NCBI RefSeq assembly: GCF_023093535.1
Contig: NZ_CP095757.1
Span: 310,001-374,000, forward strand
Length of the DNA: 64,000 nt
Source of the DNA: Halovivax limisalsi
GTDB taxonomy: Archaea; Halobacteriota; Halobacteria; Halobacteriales; Natrialbaceae
Direction of reading: 5' to 3'
The notes beneath the pieces were generated by a model. That model saw nothing but the letters and a program-made list of their open reading frames with translations. It did no database searches and was not told the DNA's origin. This document shows positions 9,521 to 35,132 of this stretch, piece by piece. Numbering within the stretch: position 1 is the first letter of the stretch; every line of letters begins with the position of its first letter. The translations under genes were made by a program, and so were the position numbers.

Positions 9521-9664
9521 GCGAGAGCGTTGGCGTGGCCGACAGTAAGGCGTTCCGGTCGGTCGGAGGGGAATTCGACAGAGACGGATATCCGACGGAC
9601 AACTCGCCGGTTCGATTGCGATTCGAGGCGGTTCCACGACCGTTCTATTCATCCATCTCTGGTA

Positions 9665-9673
9665 TTTATATAA
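9665..9673 (+). promoter_or_regulatory. TATA box of the first RNA/zinc-ribbon cassette
   Basis: TTTATATAA is centred 28 nt upstream of the first base of the P1 helix at 9697, the normal archaeal spacing from TATA box to transcription start. The second cassette has TATATATAAT at nearly the same distance. Confidence 0.7.
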
Positions 9674-9696
9674 TCGATACTAATGATTGGTTGAAC

Positions 9697-9847
9697 GGAA
9701 GCCGCGCTCCGCGTTGTCGTGGGGACAGTCACCGAGAATGTCCCGGGTGTTAGGACCACCCGAGACGTGGCTTCCAAATCCGAGGAGGATTTGTCTGCCA
9801 TGATTGCGAACACACTACCGAGACAAAAAGGTCTCGCACGCCTGCGG
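9697..9847 (+). ncRNA. Structured leader RNA, copy A
   Basis: The transcript can fold into a three-way junction. P1 pairs 9697-9706 (GGAAGCCGCG) with 9766-9775; P2 pairs GGGACA (9722-9727) with TGTCCC (9739-9744); P3 pairs GGGTG (9745-9749) with CACCC (9757-9761). P4 follows (AAATCC 9776-9781 with GGATTT 9787-9792), then P5 (GAGAC 9820-9824 with GTCTC 9831-9835) and a short P6. Copy B at 20169-20309 keeps every helix while changing bases in P1, P2 and P4. P4 holds a Shine-Dalgarno-like GAGGAGG (9782-9788) 11 nt before the leader ORF. It matches no riboswitch class I know. Confidence 0.8.
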
Positions 9848-9934
9848 TACAGTCAGCGAATGCTCCGTCCCGATTTCGGTTCGGTTTCGAAAGCGAGCCG
9901 CGAGTCCGTCGCCGGGTCGCTGGAGGGCGCCTGA
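9800..9934 (+). CDS. Leader ORF upstream of zinc-ribbon gene, copy A
   Basis: A 44-residue frame starting MIANTLPRQKGLARLR. The ATG follows GAGGAGG by 11 nt, and its stop overlaps the next ATG as TGATG, so translation of the two would be coupled. Copy B (20262-20414) encodes MLRNTPLRQKGLARLR at the same place and likewise overlaps the zinc-ribbon start (ATGA). After these 16 residues the two peptides diverge completely. The shared nine codons AGA to CGG have no synonymous change, so RNA constraint or a recent common origin may explain the conservation instead of peptide function. It could be a regulatory leader peptide. Confidence 0.5.
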   Translation: MIANTLPRQKGLARLRYSQRMLRPDFGSVSKASRESVAGSLEGA

Positions 9935-10197
9935 TGGGACGTTACGAGTACGGCGAGCCGTCGACCAGTCGCTCGTGCGAGCGCTGCGGGCAGGGACTCG
10001 GGCTGGAACACAGCGTTCGACTCGTCGCGCGTCACGAAGGGGCGCGTTCGAATCGCTATCGGGACGTCGAGCGGTACGTCTGCGGCGACTGCGTCGCCGC
10101 GCTCGGGATGCTGGAGTTCGAGGAGCGGGAATCCGACGGCAGATCCGGGACCGCGGAAGCCGGTCGCCCGCAGCCGGCCCGGTCGATCGGCGAGTGA
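9934..10197 (+). CDS. Small zinc-ribbon protein, paralogue A
   Basis: An 87-residue protein with C15xxC18 and C50xxC53, probably binding one Zn2+. The second knuckle reads RYRDVERYVCGDC and is followed by ALGMLEFEE. The protein at 20411-20647 has the same layout, with exactly 32 residues from the second to the third Cys and the shared patterns RYR-x3-RY-x-C-x-DC and L-x-EF. The two are true paralogues. The start overlaps the leader ORF stop (TGATG). The C-terminal tail (after about residue 65) is low complexity. Function unknown; small CPxCG-type haloarchaeal proteins are often regulators or adaptors. Confidence 0.82.
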   Translation: MGRYEYGEPSTSRSCERCGQGLGLEHSVRLVARHEGARSNRYRDVERYVCGDCVAALGMLEFEERESDGRSGTAEAGRPQPARSIGE

Positions 10198-19273: not shown

Positions 19274-19669
19274 TCAGTACGATTCGACGGCGAGCCCGTC
19301 GACCCGCTCGAAGTCCCCGTCGTTCGTGACGACAGCTTCCTCGTGGACGAGCCCGGTCGCCGCCACGATCGCGTCCCCCGGTCCGAGGTCGGGTTTCGAG
19401 TCGCTCGCCAGGTGGTCACCCTCGAGCCTCCCGGCCCGGCGGGCGATGCGCTCGTCGATCGAAACGACTGGCTTGTTGGTCACGAGCGCGTCGTACGCGC
19501 GGGCGTTCTCCGCCGGCGTGACCCCTGCTCCAACCCCGACGTAGAGTTCTTCGATGACGGTGGTCGGAACGCGCGTCGGAACACCGGCCGCTTCGAGTTC
19601 TGCGCCGAGTTCGAGCGCGGCCTCGTCGTCGGCCCGGAGCGAGATGAGAAAGTCGGTATCGAGAATCAT
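19274..19669 (-). CDS. vapC: VapC-type PIN toxin
   Basis: A 131-residue PIN nuclease with active-site acids in MILDTDFLISL, VIEELYVGVG, DLGPGDAIVAATGLV and VVTNDGDFERVDGL. VapC toxins cut RNA, often tRNA or rRNA. Its start overlaps the VapB stop (ATGA). The gene is convergent to the UspA gene. Confidence 0.9.
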   Translation of the reverse strand: MILDTDFLISLRADDEAALELGAELEAAGVPTRVPTTVIEELYVGVGAGVTPAENARAYDALVTNKPVVSIDERIARRAGRLEGDHLASDSKPDLGPGDAIVAATGLVHEEAVVTNDGDFERVDGLAVESY

Positions 19670-19911
19670 TCGTCGTCCGCGTCCATCCGCTCGAGAAGTT
19701 CGCGGTGATCTGCGACGCCGGTCTCGTCGGAACGCTCGAGCAGGGCCCGGTGGTCCGCCGCCTCCTCGTCGGTGTAGCCACCCGCGAAGTCGAGCAGCGA
19801 ATACTCCGTCGTTAGTCGATCGATCGCCGCCGAAAACGTCTCGTCTTCCCGCTTTTTCGCTTTGATGCGCTCGTAGACGTCCTCCTCGAGCCGAACGGAC
19901 TTCGTGGCCAT
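19666..19911 (-). CDS. vapB: VapB-type antitoxin
   Basis: An 81-residue partner whose N-terminus (MATKSVRLEEDVYERIKAKK) is a ribbon-helix-helix DNA-binding segment of the haloarchaeal VapB group (Pfam VAPB_antitox-like). The C-terminal half contains a tandem repeat (EEAADHRALLERSDE and GVADHRELLERMDA) that would wrap the toxin. The ATG at 19911 was chosen because the longer upstream frame is unlike protein. A perfect palindrome ends three bases upstream of the start, fitting autorepression. Confidence 0.9.
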   Translation of the reverse strand: MATKSVRLEEDVYERIKAKKREDETFSAAIDRLTTEYSLLDFAGGYTDEEAADHRALLERSDETGVADHRELLERMDADDE

Positions 19912-19913
19912 GT

Positions 19914-19928
19914 GTATACGTCGTATAC
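19914..19928. promoter_or_regulatory. VapBC operator palindrome
   Basis: GTATACG-T-CGTATAC is a perfect 15-bp dyad starting 3 nt upstream of the vapB ATG. Ribbon-helix-helix antitoxins bind such dyads at their own promoter. Confidence 0.65.
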
Positions 19929-20134
19929 GCGAGTCAGTCAATCTTTCGCTGATCGGTCCGTCGTAGCTGAAACTCGAGGGAACGGGCCGAACAGGCGCAG
20001 GTTCGATGTCCAAGGTATGAGGGGTGAACGAGTGCGGTTCTGTTTGCACAATCCCGTATTTGATATCCAAACTGAGGCCCGTCTTGGGCAGCATTTGGAT
20101 GTCTATTTTTGGTGTTAGTTTTTCGTCTCACCAG

Positions 20135-20144
20135 TATATATAAT
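20135..20144 (+). promoter_or_regulatory. TATA box of the second RNA/zinc-ribbon cassette
   Basis: TATATATAAT is centred about 30 nt before the first base of the RNA P1 helix at 20169, matching the spacing in the first cassette. Confidence 0.7.
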
Positions 20145-20168
20145 ACGGTACGAGTCAATATCCCGACT

Positions 20169-20309
20169 GGAAGCCACGGACCCAGAGAGGGGCAGAAATG
20201 CCCCGGGTGGTAGGGCACCCGAGACGTGGCTTCCGAAAACCAAGGGCGGTTTTCAGTAGCCATGTTACGCAACACCCCACTGAGACAAAAAGGTCTCGCA
20301 CGCCTGCGG
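20169..20309 (+). ncRNA. Structured leader RNA, copy B
   Basis: The same fold as 9697-9847. P1 is GGAAGCCACG (20169-20178) with CGTGGCTTCC (20225-20234); P2 is GGGGCA (20189-20194) with TGCCCC (20199-20204); P3 is GGGTG with CACCC (20205-20209, 20216-20220); P4 is GAAAACC (20235-20241) with GGTTTTC (20248-20254); P5 is GAGAC with GTCTC (20282-20286, 20293-20297). Loops differ from copy A while helices are kept. AAGGGCGG (20242-20249), a weak Shine-Dalgarno, lies in the P4 loop 12 nt before the leader ORF ATG. The last 28 bases are identical to copy A. Confidence 0.8.
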
Positions 20310-20414
20310 CACCGGGAGCCGAATCGCTATCCAACGTCGACTTTTGGTTTCGAGGATGGAGGACCGAAGGCCACCGACTGGTCCGCGTCGTCAGACCGGA
20401 GGAACCTCGGATGA
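20262..20414 (+). CDS. Leader ORF upstream of zinc-ribbon gene, copy B
   Basis: A 50-residue frame starting MLRNTPLRQKGLARLR, equivalent to MIANTLPRQKGLARLR in copy A. The stop overlaps the zinc-ribbon start (ATGA), so coupled translation is likely if it is translated. An in-frame ATG at 20226 lies inside the P1 helix and is a less likely start. The peptide after residue 16 does not resemble copy A. Confidence 0.5.
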   Translation: MLRNTPLRQKGLARLRHREPNRYPTSTFGFEDGGPKATDWSASSDRRNLG

Positions 20415-20647
20415 AATCCGTCGAGCAATCGCACGGCGAAGTGATCGAGTCGCAGGCCGACCGGGAGTGTTATCGGTGCGATCGGAACGAAGAACCATCG
20501 CACCTGTTCGAGATCACTGTCGAGCCATCGGCCGCGATCTCTGGGCGGTATCGGGAGTCGGTTCGATACTGTTGTGTCGACTGCGCCGCCGGAATGAATC
20601 TCTCGGAGTTTTCGGAGGGGTGGAAAGGACGCGGCGAGCAGCGGTAG
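20411..20647 (+). CDS. Small zinc-ribbon protein, paralogue B
   Basis: A 78-residue protein with C20xxC23 and C55xxC58, plus RYRESVRYCCVDC and a LSEFSEGW tail. Spacing between the Cys pairs is the same 32 residues as in the protein at 9934-10197. Both follow a structured RNA and an overlapping leader ORF. It has an extra Cys at 54. Function unknown; a zinc-dependent adaptor or regulator is plausible, and the leader RNA may set its expression. Confidence 0.82.
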   Translation: MKSVEQSHGEVIESQADRECYRCDRNEEPSHLFEITVEPSAAISGRYRESVRYCCVDCAAGMNLSEFSEGWKGRGEQR

Positions 20648-34022: not shown

Positions 34023-35132
34023 ATGACCGAAATCACGCCCGCTGAACTCGGCGACCGGATCGGGACCGACGAGGCCCCGCTCGTCGTCGACGTTCGCTCA
34101 CAGGAGGAGTACGCTGACTGGCACGTCCCGGGAAGTATCAACGTCGACGTCTACGACGAGCTGCAATCGGACCCGGCCGCGGCGGCCGAATCGCTCGCGG
34201 ACCTGCCCGAAGACCGAGAGATCGTCACCGTCTGCGCCGCCGGAGTCGTCGCGGAGACGGCGGCGGACGCCCTTCGAGACAGGGGCTACGACGCGAAGAC
34301 GCTCGTCGACGGGATGAACGGCTGGAGCCGCGTGCACCGGAGCGCCGTCGTCAGGACCGATCTCGACGGCACGCTCGTCCAGGTCGCCCGTCCGGGGAAG
34401 GGCTGTCTCTCGCACGTGCTCGTGGCCGACGGCGAGGCCGCGGTCTTCGACCCCTCGCACTACCTCGCGGCGTACGACGCGATCCTCGAGGCGTACGACG
34501 CCGATCTCGTCGGCGTCTTCGACACGCACGCCCACGCGGATCACGTCTCCGGCGGGGCCGACCTCGCCGCGCGCCACGACGTCCCGTACTACCTGCACCC
34601 CGACGACGCGCTCGCGATCGACGTTGCCCCGATCGCTGACGGTGAGACGATCACGGTCGGGACGGTCGACATCGACGTGATCCACACGCCCGGCCACAGC
34701 GAGGGCAGCGTCACCTTCGCCCTCGCGGGCGAGGCGCTCCTGACGGGCGATACGCTCTTTCACGAGAGCGTCGGTCGCGTCGAGCTGGGTGTCGAGGCCG
34801 GCATCGAGGACTCGGACGTCGAGTCGAACGCGGCAACGCTCTACGAGAGCCTCCAGCGCATCATCGAACGACCGGACGACGCGGTCGTCCTCCCGGCGCA
34901 CGATCCCGGCTCGCCGGAACCGCCGGTGAGCGCGACGCTCGACGAGGTTCGGGCGCGAAATCCGGATCTCGATCGCGACCGGGCGGCGTTCGTCCGGACG
35001 CTCGCGGCGGATGTCCCGGACCACCCGCCGAACTTCGAACGCGTCAAGCGAGCGAACGTCGGCCGGGCGGACGTTCCGGACGACGAACTGTCCGAGCTCG
35101 AACTGGGGCCAAACCGCTGTGCCGCGGAGTGA
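34023..35132 (+). CDS. Rhodanese and beta-lactamase-fold fusion (persulfide metabolism type)
   Basis: A 369-residue fusion. Residues 1-105 form a rhodanese domain (APLVVDVRSQEEYADWHVPG and active-site loop VCAAGVVAE). Residues 110-300 form a metallo-beta-lactamase domain with THAHADHVSGG (H168, H170, D172, H173), the later HTPGHSEGSV and LLTGDTLFHESVGRVEL, giving a metal site like that of persulfide dioxygenase or glyoxalase II. The C-terminal 60 residues are helical. The fusion order is reversed compared with many persulfide dioxygenases. It starts an operon with the MFS gene three bases after its stop. Confidence 0.88.
   Translation: MTEITPAELGDRIGTDEAPLVVDVRSQEEYADWHVPGSINVDVYDELQSDPAAAAESLADLPEDREIVTVCAAGVVAETAADALRDRGYDAKTLVDGMNGWSRVHRSAVVRTDLDGTLVQVARPGKGCLSHVLVADGEAAVFDPSHYLAAYDAILEAYDADLVGVFDTHAHADHVSGGADLAARHDVPYYLHPDDALAIDVAPIADGETITVGTVDIDVIHTPGHSEGSVTFALAGEALLTGDTLFHESVGRVELGVEAGIEDSDVESNAATLYESLQRIIERPDDAVVLPAHDPGSPEPPVSATLDEVRARNPDLDRDRAAFVRTLAADVPDHPPNFERVKRANVGRADVPDDELSELELGPNRCAAE

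Follow-up and report, generated by a model that had tools for sequence, protein, structure and literature searches.

To our knowledge, natural riboswitches and other switching leaders are almost unknown in haloarchaea. Ribosomal-protein leaders offer one general model, a 5’ fold that is autoregulated by the product of the mRNA. An experimentally shown archaeal riboswitch, as cited in PMC8241225, is the fluoride riboswitch of Thermococcus kodakarensis. Initiation at haloarchaeal 5’ UTRs proceeds without use of a Shine-Dalgarno motif, and overlapping gene pairs tested in Haloferax are strictly coupled in their translation (PMC6728339). In the haloviruses phiH and phiCh1, a repressor gene facing T4 (phiH) or ORF49 (phiCh1) forms a known lysogeny circuit, and RNA processing has been reported in the phiH L region (PMC4284463).

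The element described here occurs twice in a 64,000-nucleotide stretch of the Halovivax limisalsi genome (NZ_CP095757.1, positions 310,001 to 374,000; hereafter the window, in whose numbering all positions are given), at 9697 (copy 1) and 20169 (copy 2). It resembles translational riboswitches in its junction-type fold, in a closing stem that competes with sequestration of the start, and in its location in cis in the 5’ UTR. Unlike them, it would cover the AUG itself, in a setting of initiation without Shine-Dalgarno, and it extends into the coding region through a fifth helix, P5. With ribosomal-protein leaders it may share feedback of a product on a 5’ leader fold, but the products downstream are here of several kinds. 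The overlap of its two frames, ORF1 and ORF2, has the same geometry (ATGA/TGATG) as the coupled pairs of Haloferax; unlike those pairs, the upstream frame is short, with a structured, conserved start and an unconserved end.

We consider it likely that the element forms the 5’ leader on a short mRNA, with two mutually exclusive folds that gate translation of ORF1 and, through coupling, that of ORF2. In fold A, helix P1 would be the closing stem of a three-way junction whose other arms are P2 and P3, and the start codon of ORF1 would be accessible (ON). In fold B, the 3’ strand of P1 would leave that helix and pair with the start region GAAGCC-AUG, a mimic of the P1 5’ strand, forming the stem that we call P1*; P4 would cap this hairpin, and the start codon would be covered (OFF). 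Since haloarchaeal 5’ UTRs do without Shine-Dalgarno sequences, covering the AUG itself would be a natural platform. The first codons of ORF1 are predicted to hold the further hairpin P5, and the overlap of the ORF1 stop with the ORF2 start would allow ORF2 to be made by termination-reinitiation when ORF1 is translated. The state would be set by whatever favours P1: a ligand, an ion or a protein, possibly the zinc protein itself. Comparison among copies establishes the pairing potential of both folds, the predicted ORF1, the coupling geometry and the association with putative zinc-binding genes; the ON/OFF polarity and the switching in the cell we infer. The anatomy of the leader is riboswitch-like, and we do not class it as a riboswitch, a class that requires ligand binding. 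Such a leader family, with as many as 32 members in a genome, a start region mimicking one P1 strand and a mapped viral transcript that opens with a similar fold, would be a directly testable model of translation control in haloarchaea. Dozens of uncharacterised small zinc-finger proteins would become approachable through it, and the classic lysogeny circuit of phiH might gain a further level of control.

Table 1. Features of the two copies of the leader and its genes in the window.
Feature	Positions	Strand	Evidence or remark
TATA-box-like promoter element TATATATAAT (copy 2)	20135..20144	+	sequence; 25-34 nt 5’ of P1
P1 5’ strand GGAAGCCACG (copy 2)	20169..20178	+	sequence, fold, alignment
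P2 hairpin GGGGCA-GAAA-TGCCCC (copy 2)	20189..20204	+	sequence, covariation
P3 hairpin GGGTG-GTAGGG-CACCC (copy 2)	20205..20220	+	sequence, covariation
P1 3’ strand CGTGGCTTCC (copy 2)	20225..20234	+	alternative partners: P1 5’ strand or start region
P4 hairpin GAAAACC/GGTTTTC (copy 2)	20235..20254	+	would cap the alternative start-covering hairpin
Start region and start codon, AGCCATG (copy 2)	20258..20264	+	predicted P1* partner of 20225-20231; MFE fold
ORF1 (copy 2), 50 aa, MLRNTPLRQKGLARLRHRE...	20262..20414	+	absent from the original prediction
P5 hairpin GAGAC-AAAAAG-GTCTC (copy 2), within ORF1	20282..20297	+	sequence, fold, covariation
ORF2 (copy 2), 78 aa, putative zinc-binding protein (CYRC...CCVDC)	20411..20647	+	start overlaps ORF1 stop, ATGA
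TATA-box-like element TATTTATATAAT (copy 1)	9663..9674	+	sequence
P1-P2-P3 domain (copy 1)	9696..9775	+	covariance model R1, 77.2 bits; copy 1 is among the sequences used to build R1
P4 hairpin AAATCC/GGATTT (copy 1)	9776..9793	+	sequence, fold energies
ORF1 (copy 1), 44 aa, MIANTLPRQKGLARLRY..., with P5 at 9820-9835 inside	9800..9934	+	
ORF2 (copy 1), 87 aa, putative zinc-binding protein (CERCG...CGDC)	9934..10197	+	start overlaps ORF1 stop, TGATG

The two copies in the window differ in the manner that the original prediction had taken as a sign of selected structure, and every helix it named was found at both places. P1 is GGAAGCCGCG/CGTGGCTTCC in copy 1 and GGAAGCCACG/CGTGGCTTCC in copy 2, a change from G-U to A-U; P2 changes from GGGACA/TGTCCC to the GGGGCA/TGCCCC of copy 2, and P4 from AAATCC/GGATTT to GAAAACC/GGTTTTC. 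P3 and P5 have the same sequence in both copies, and the P4 loops and P1-P2 linkers are, as had been claimed, unrelated. The 28-mer GAGACAAAAAGGTCTCGCACGCCTGCGG is present twice, where none is expected from shuffles. Taken alone, positions 20155-20410 of copy 2 fold more stably than shuffled sequences (z -2.9) and the copy at 9690 reaches a z of only -1.6, so the structural case depends on comparison of copies. Just 5’ of copy 2, the minus strand at 19274-20094 carries what is, judged from its sequence, likely a VapBC-type toxin-antitoxin pair.

That comparison supports selection on the structure. Across 102 distinct aligned copies, pairing is retained in 98% of P1, 95% of P2 and 100% of P3 cells, with inner P1 pairs at only 72%. 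Overall, 93.3% of P1-P3 cells are paired, against 90.5% in shuffles and about 49% after a one-column slide, and two-sided changes affect 11 pairs (4.4 shuffled) and 61 cells (14.4 shuffled), counts that none of 500 shuffles reached; as the alignment was fitted to the structure, these figures lean in its favour. Under a tree-simulated null with column-specific rates, one P2 pair and one P5 pair (A-U to G-C) remain at E < 0.01, and the best P1 pair has an E of only 0.42. Several non-pairing column couples also score highly in this test, which we take as subfamily signal. P3 is almost invariant within the Natrialbaceae, the family to which the window’s genome belongs in GTDB, and carries compensatory changes in other families (GAGTG/CACTC, ACGTG/CACGT, GCGTG/CACGC, GGGCG/CGCCC, CGGTG/CACCG). 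The P4 spacer has 99 different sequences among 101 copies, and 78 of these 101 can nevertheless fold into a hairpin with 4 bp or more, with a mean energy of -4.8 kcal/mol against -1.6 for shuffled spacers. The proposal that further haloarchaeal copies would covary was thus upheld, and a conserved structured domain, a hallmark of riboswitches, lies in the 5’ leader. An additional pseudoknot arm around the P2 5’ strand (CGCAG-GGGA-CTGCG), seen by eye in long copies, left no clear column signal in alignment A4 and was dropped.

The RNA is a previously uncatalogued family. When the window and 12 loci were searched against Rfam 15, only a tRNA in the window passed the gathering threshold, and a permissive search of two stretches gave matches at chance level only. 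A literature search, mainly of openly accessible work and therefore weak evidence of absence, found no earlier description of this RNA.

The P1-P5 structure proposed for the cassette stands; an alternative pairing with the start codon had been overlooked. In the MFE fold of copy 2, CGTGGCT of the P1 3’ strand pairs with AGCCATG at the start codon; that of copy 1 forms P1. Forcing copy 2 into each fold gives -57.9 kcal/mol for A and -54.0 for B. Over 99 copies the median of B minus A is +2.7 kcal/mol, with 73 within 6 kcal/mol and B better in 22, under an energy model that disregards molar KCl. At 26 loci, the pairing of each start region with its own P1 3’ strand averages -10.7 kcal/mol, against -7.8 when partners are permuted (z -6.5; none of 20,000 permutations as good), and the 19 loci outside the family give z -6.1; these loci were collected after the hypothesis and their sequences had already been inspected by eye, with strand and start set by rules independent of pairing. 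Within the Natrialbaceae alone the same test was not significant (631 of 5,000 permutations), because the strands hardly vary there, and the proof of P1* rests on the other families. Two deviants within the Natrialbaceae are nevertheless suggestive, GGTTTC with GAAACC (L138) and GCTTC with GAAGC (L119). Elsewhere the start region tracks P1 through GGTCTTC/GAAGACC (Haladaptatus), GGTTGTC/GACAACC (L217), GGGTTC/GAACCC (L266), GGCTTTC/GAAAGCC (L257) and GGTTCC/GGAACC (L264), and is only partial at some loci of other families, for example L246, L249, L261 and L268. Further examples of the match are GGCTTC/GAAGCC and GGCCTT/AAGGCC. The start region thus repeats the P1 5’ strand, and all three strands co-vary, the signature expected of competing stems P1 and P1*, with P4 inside the latter. 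A competing stem that hides the start, as in an expression platform, is in this way present as pairing potential, not as function.

The start codon at 20262 opens a frame of 50 codons. For copy 2, the cassette at 20135-20647 had been credited with its zinc-ribbon gene, ORF2, and rightly so; ORF1 and its predicted translational coupling had been missed. The hairpin P5 is where it had been placed, and it lies within coding sequence, where it encodes RQKGLAR. The identity of P5 between the two window copies may thus be due in part to coding, and in other copies P5 covaries. There GAGAC..GTCTC becomes GGGAY..RTCCC and the peptide changes from R..L to G..P; since pairing is retained through this replacement, RNA pairing, rather than the peptide, appears to be what is kept. 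Codons 9-11 of ORF1 read [HYQEL][KE]R (HKR, YKR, QER, LER, EKR; also QKG), a motif that recurs in otherwise unrelated proteins of other families, apparently as a consequence of its codons forming the P5 loop.

The ORF1 stop falls between -20 and +5 of the zinc ORF start in 96 of the 106 copies that have a separate zinc ORF, and in 63 of these the offset is -4; for the two remaining frames of that ATG, the stop falls in this range in 8 copies and 1 copy. Seven further copies have ORF1 fused to the zinc domain. The stop/start overlap of a translationally coupled pair is therefore present, and by likeness to the Haloferax pairs we read ORF2 translation as dependent on that of ORF1. As the tail of ORF1 is without conservation, and as similar N-terminal codons are in other families fused to the downstream protein, we read ORF1 as a carrier frame that would connect the switch to ORF2.

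The association of the RNA with zinc-type genes, proposed to have been kept after duplication, holds broadly: a four-cysteine ORF lies within 600 nt downstream in 115 of 139 Natrialbaceae copies, whereas 4.8% of the stretches used as controls have one. The stricter expectation, that each copy always precedes such a gene, fails in 24 copies without an intact zinc ORF. Several of these are decayed (L031, L132, L118), and an ORF1-only subclass (L034, L035, L042, L066, in Halopiger, Natrinema and the window’s own genome) has no zinc ORF. In the decayed L031 (G000:C1:3472582-3472664, own genome), the ORF1 ATG has become ACG, and the P1 end and the P5 loop are altered. Nor do the downstream proteins form the single zinc-ribbon family first supposed. 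They include CYRC..CCxxC, CxRCG..CxDCxAALGMLEF, CPxCG..PCGC and CQVCG types, a HalOD1-like domain with a ribbon (E 0.021, under the cut-off) and SWIM fingers (Pfam SWIM in Haladaptatus at 22.9 bits, above the cut-off of 19.6), with zinc-type patterns such as CxxC-CxxC and CxxC-CxC. Zinc binding by ORF2 is suggested by cysteine spacing, and its cysteines are invariant across 15 paralogues. Searches of ORF1 and ORF2 against Pfam, NCBIfam and PADLOC gave nothing above cut-off apart from the Haladaptatus SWIM match. The structure that AlphaFold predicted for ORF2 was weak (mean pLDDT 68), its Foldseek search gave no significant fold match (best E 0.17, with ribosomal chains among the weak matches), and it was set aside. 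One published comparison system resembles ORF2 in size and cysteine pattern, and the accessible part of its description mentions no RNA leader.

The CQVCG proteins adjoin a RAMP-like gene. At L060, L214 and L217 the leader is followed by a small gene (of CQVCG type in L214, a relative in L060) and then the RAMP-like gene, which at L217 has a PADLOC Csm3 match (E 1.4e-5); the arrangement is possibly an unusual CRISPR type III/IV-like operon.

Two narrower versions of the switch name its trigger, and we hold each only tentatively. In the first, the P1-P2-P3 junction would bind a small molecule or metal ion, perhaps zinc or another transition metal. Riboswitches usually work through competition for a stem such as P1, conservation within the Natrialbaceae extends to the GAAA next to P2 and to the GAGAC strand, and a single RNA fold precedes zinc proteins of different kinds. 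Zinc is an attractive signal because one leader serves zinc-binding proteins that differ in fold. Yet some downstream genes are without a zinc motif (L225, L254, L262, L258, L261), the presence of as many as 32 copies in a genome ahead of paralogous genes would be unusual for a riboswitch, and no transporter or metabolic gene was seen directly downstream. In the second, of similar standing, the trigger would be a protein that binds the leader and so controls its own synthesis, the simplest candidates being the zinc protein encoded there and the ORF1 peptide. Leader and cysteine-rich ORF have stayed together through many duplications and in a virus, and zinc fingers frequently bind nucleic acids; against this, the proteins are of several kinds while P1-P3 is a single fold, and the ORF1-only subclass retains the RNA without a zinc ORF. 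Feedback by the encoded proteins may be about as likely as a zinc signal.

That there is no switch at all seems to us improbable. A rigid P1-P5 would then stabilise the mRNA or be cut by an RNase, and the match at the start region would serve some other end, such as ribosome recruitment. P1 is predicted to be stronger than P1* in most copies, and stabilisation of mRNA by 5’ stem-loops is possible, as is processing of the kind reported in the phiH L region (PMC4284463). A rigid structure, however, would not need a start region that changes together with P1 across families, as it does here. A dispersed repeat, that is a mobile element or recombination target, would suit the many copies per genome and their presence on plasmids, but is largely refuted by covarying helices with unrelated linkers, by the fixed position 5’ of ORF1 and the zinc ORF and by the promoter-like box ahead of the copies, and we regard it as very improbable.

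The proposed two-state leader is widely distributed. Blastn finds 29 copies in the window’s own Halovivax genome, and a covariance model, R1, from which P4, ORF1 and ORF2 were deliberately omitted so that it covers P1-P3, finds 29 matches there at E < 1e-4. In the Natrialbaceae it is present in 76 of 125 genomes and 23 of 29 genera, among them Halovivax, Natrinema, Natrialba, Halostagnicola, Halopiger and Natronorubrum, with a maximum of 32 copies per genome. Nearly all copies have an AT-rich, promoter-like box at a similar distance 5’ of P1. A broader model, R2, built from the 102 copies, matches 113 of 391 genomes and 54 of 86 genera across the Halobacteria, where many of the matches outside the Natrialbaceae are weak (E 1e-4 to 1e-7) and about 50 loci were checked by reading. 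Carriers outside the family include Haladaptatus, Halobacterium salinarum, Haloprofundus, Halorubrum and Haloarcula plasmids; the Halobacterium salinarum copy in NZ_CP128378 is on a plasmid. P1-P3 is quasi-palindromic, and the reverse-strand matches at L208, L212, L213 and other loci outside the family are cross-matches, whose orientation was corrected by hand. Bacterial pattern matches occurred at chance level and failed the covariance model. Haladaptatus plasmids (for example NZ_CP085339 and NZ_CP085340) have up to 30 similar places each, with leader and SWIM zinc-finger gene, and in Natrinema pallidum (L111:2858-3420) two leaders lie 494 nt apart, one with a degenerate zinc ORF.

Outside the Natrialbaceae, a small wHTH gene often faces the leader, starting roughly 50-150 nt upstream. 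By inspection, at least 36 of 51 other-family loci have such an ORF there; a crude pattern finds it in 22 of the 51, and in none of the 139 Natrialbaceae copies, both window copies included. Some of these facing regulators are phiH1-repressor-like (PHROG transcriptional regulator, E 2e-33; 64% identity to halovirus BJ1). Paired palindromic operator-like repeats flank the leader TATA box in other families (L207-L269; for example L211:1430-1500, L209, L214, L250 and L269). Their sequences vary by copy (ACTACGTAGTAC, TTACTG..CAGTAA, CCATCACC..GGTGATGG), which suggests a separate cognate regulator for each.

Viral genomes carry the unit as well. In Haloarcula virus Harhisp1, the leader, its P1* partner and a facing regulator are accompanied by ORF1 and a cysteine-rich ORF2 that overlap as GTGA; on an IMG/VR contig, leader and P1* partner are present. 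The early lytic transcript T4 of phiH1 has its annotated start site at the first base of a P1 stem, some 16 bp long, that encloses P2 and P3 in the MFE fold (19.9 bits, E 5e-4, a weak score from 1.7 kb with filters off). A fold 5’ of phiCh1 ORF49, likewise P1-P2-P3 in the MFE structure, gives 20.8 bits (E 1.3e-4, a weak score from a short stretch with filters off); a filtered search of the whole phiCh1 record gave no match, and phiH1 was searched unfiltered only. A putatively similar fold lies at the T4 start, and the likeness of phiH1 and phiCh1 rests on fold, position and loop likeness jointly. The lysogeny region, with repR facing T4 or ORF49, shares with the other-family loci a regulator facing the leader and operator-like repeats around the TATA box, and in phiH1 also a putative P1-P2-P3 domain at the mapped T4 5’ end and overlapping small ORFs (phiH1_275/280, 4 nt). 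It differs from the Natrialbaceae copies, which by the crude pattern are without a facing regulator, and in these viruses extra hairpins precede the start codon.

The unit probably descends from, or travels with, virus or plasmid immunity loci and was amplified without the regulator in the Natrialbaceae. The boldest reading, of a widespread haloarchaeal riboswitch that senses zinc or another shared signal, gates zinc proteins through the start codon and is shared with the control of halovirus lysogeny, where it would open an early lytic transcript, we consider rather unlikely. In phiH1 and phiCh1 the start codon is more distant and is reached only via additional alternating hairpins; for them, the simple two-state picture would need modification. 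In these leaders (L282, phiH1 34556-34730; L275, phiCh1), a relay of alternating strands after P1 replaces the single start-covering strand, and in phiCh1 its strands are TGCCTTC, GAAGGCA, GTGTCTTC and GAAGACATG.
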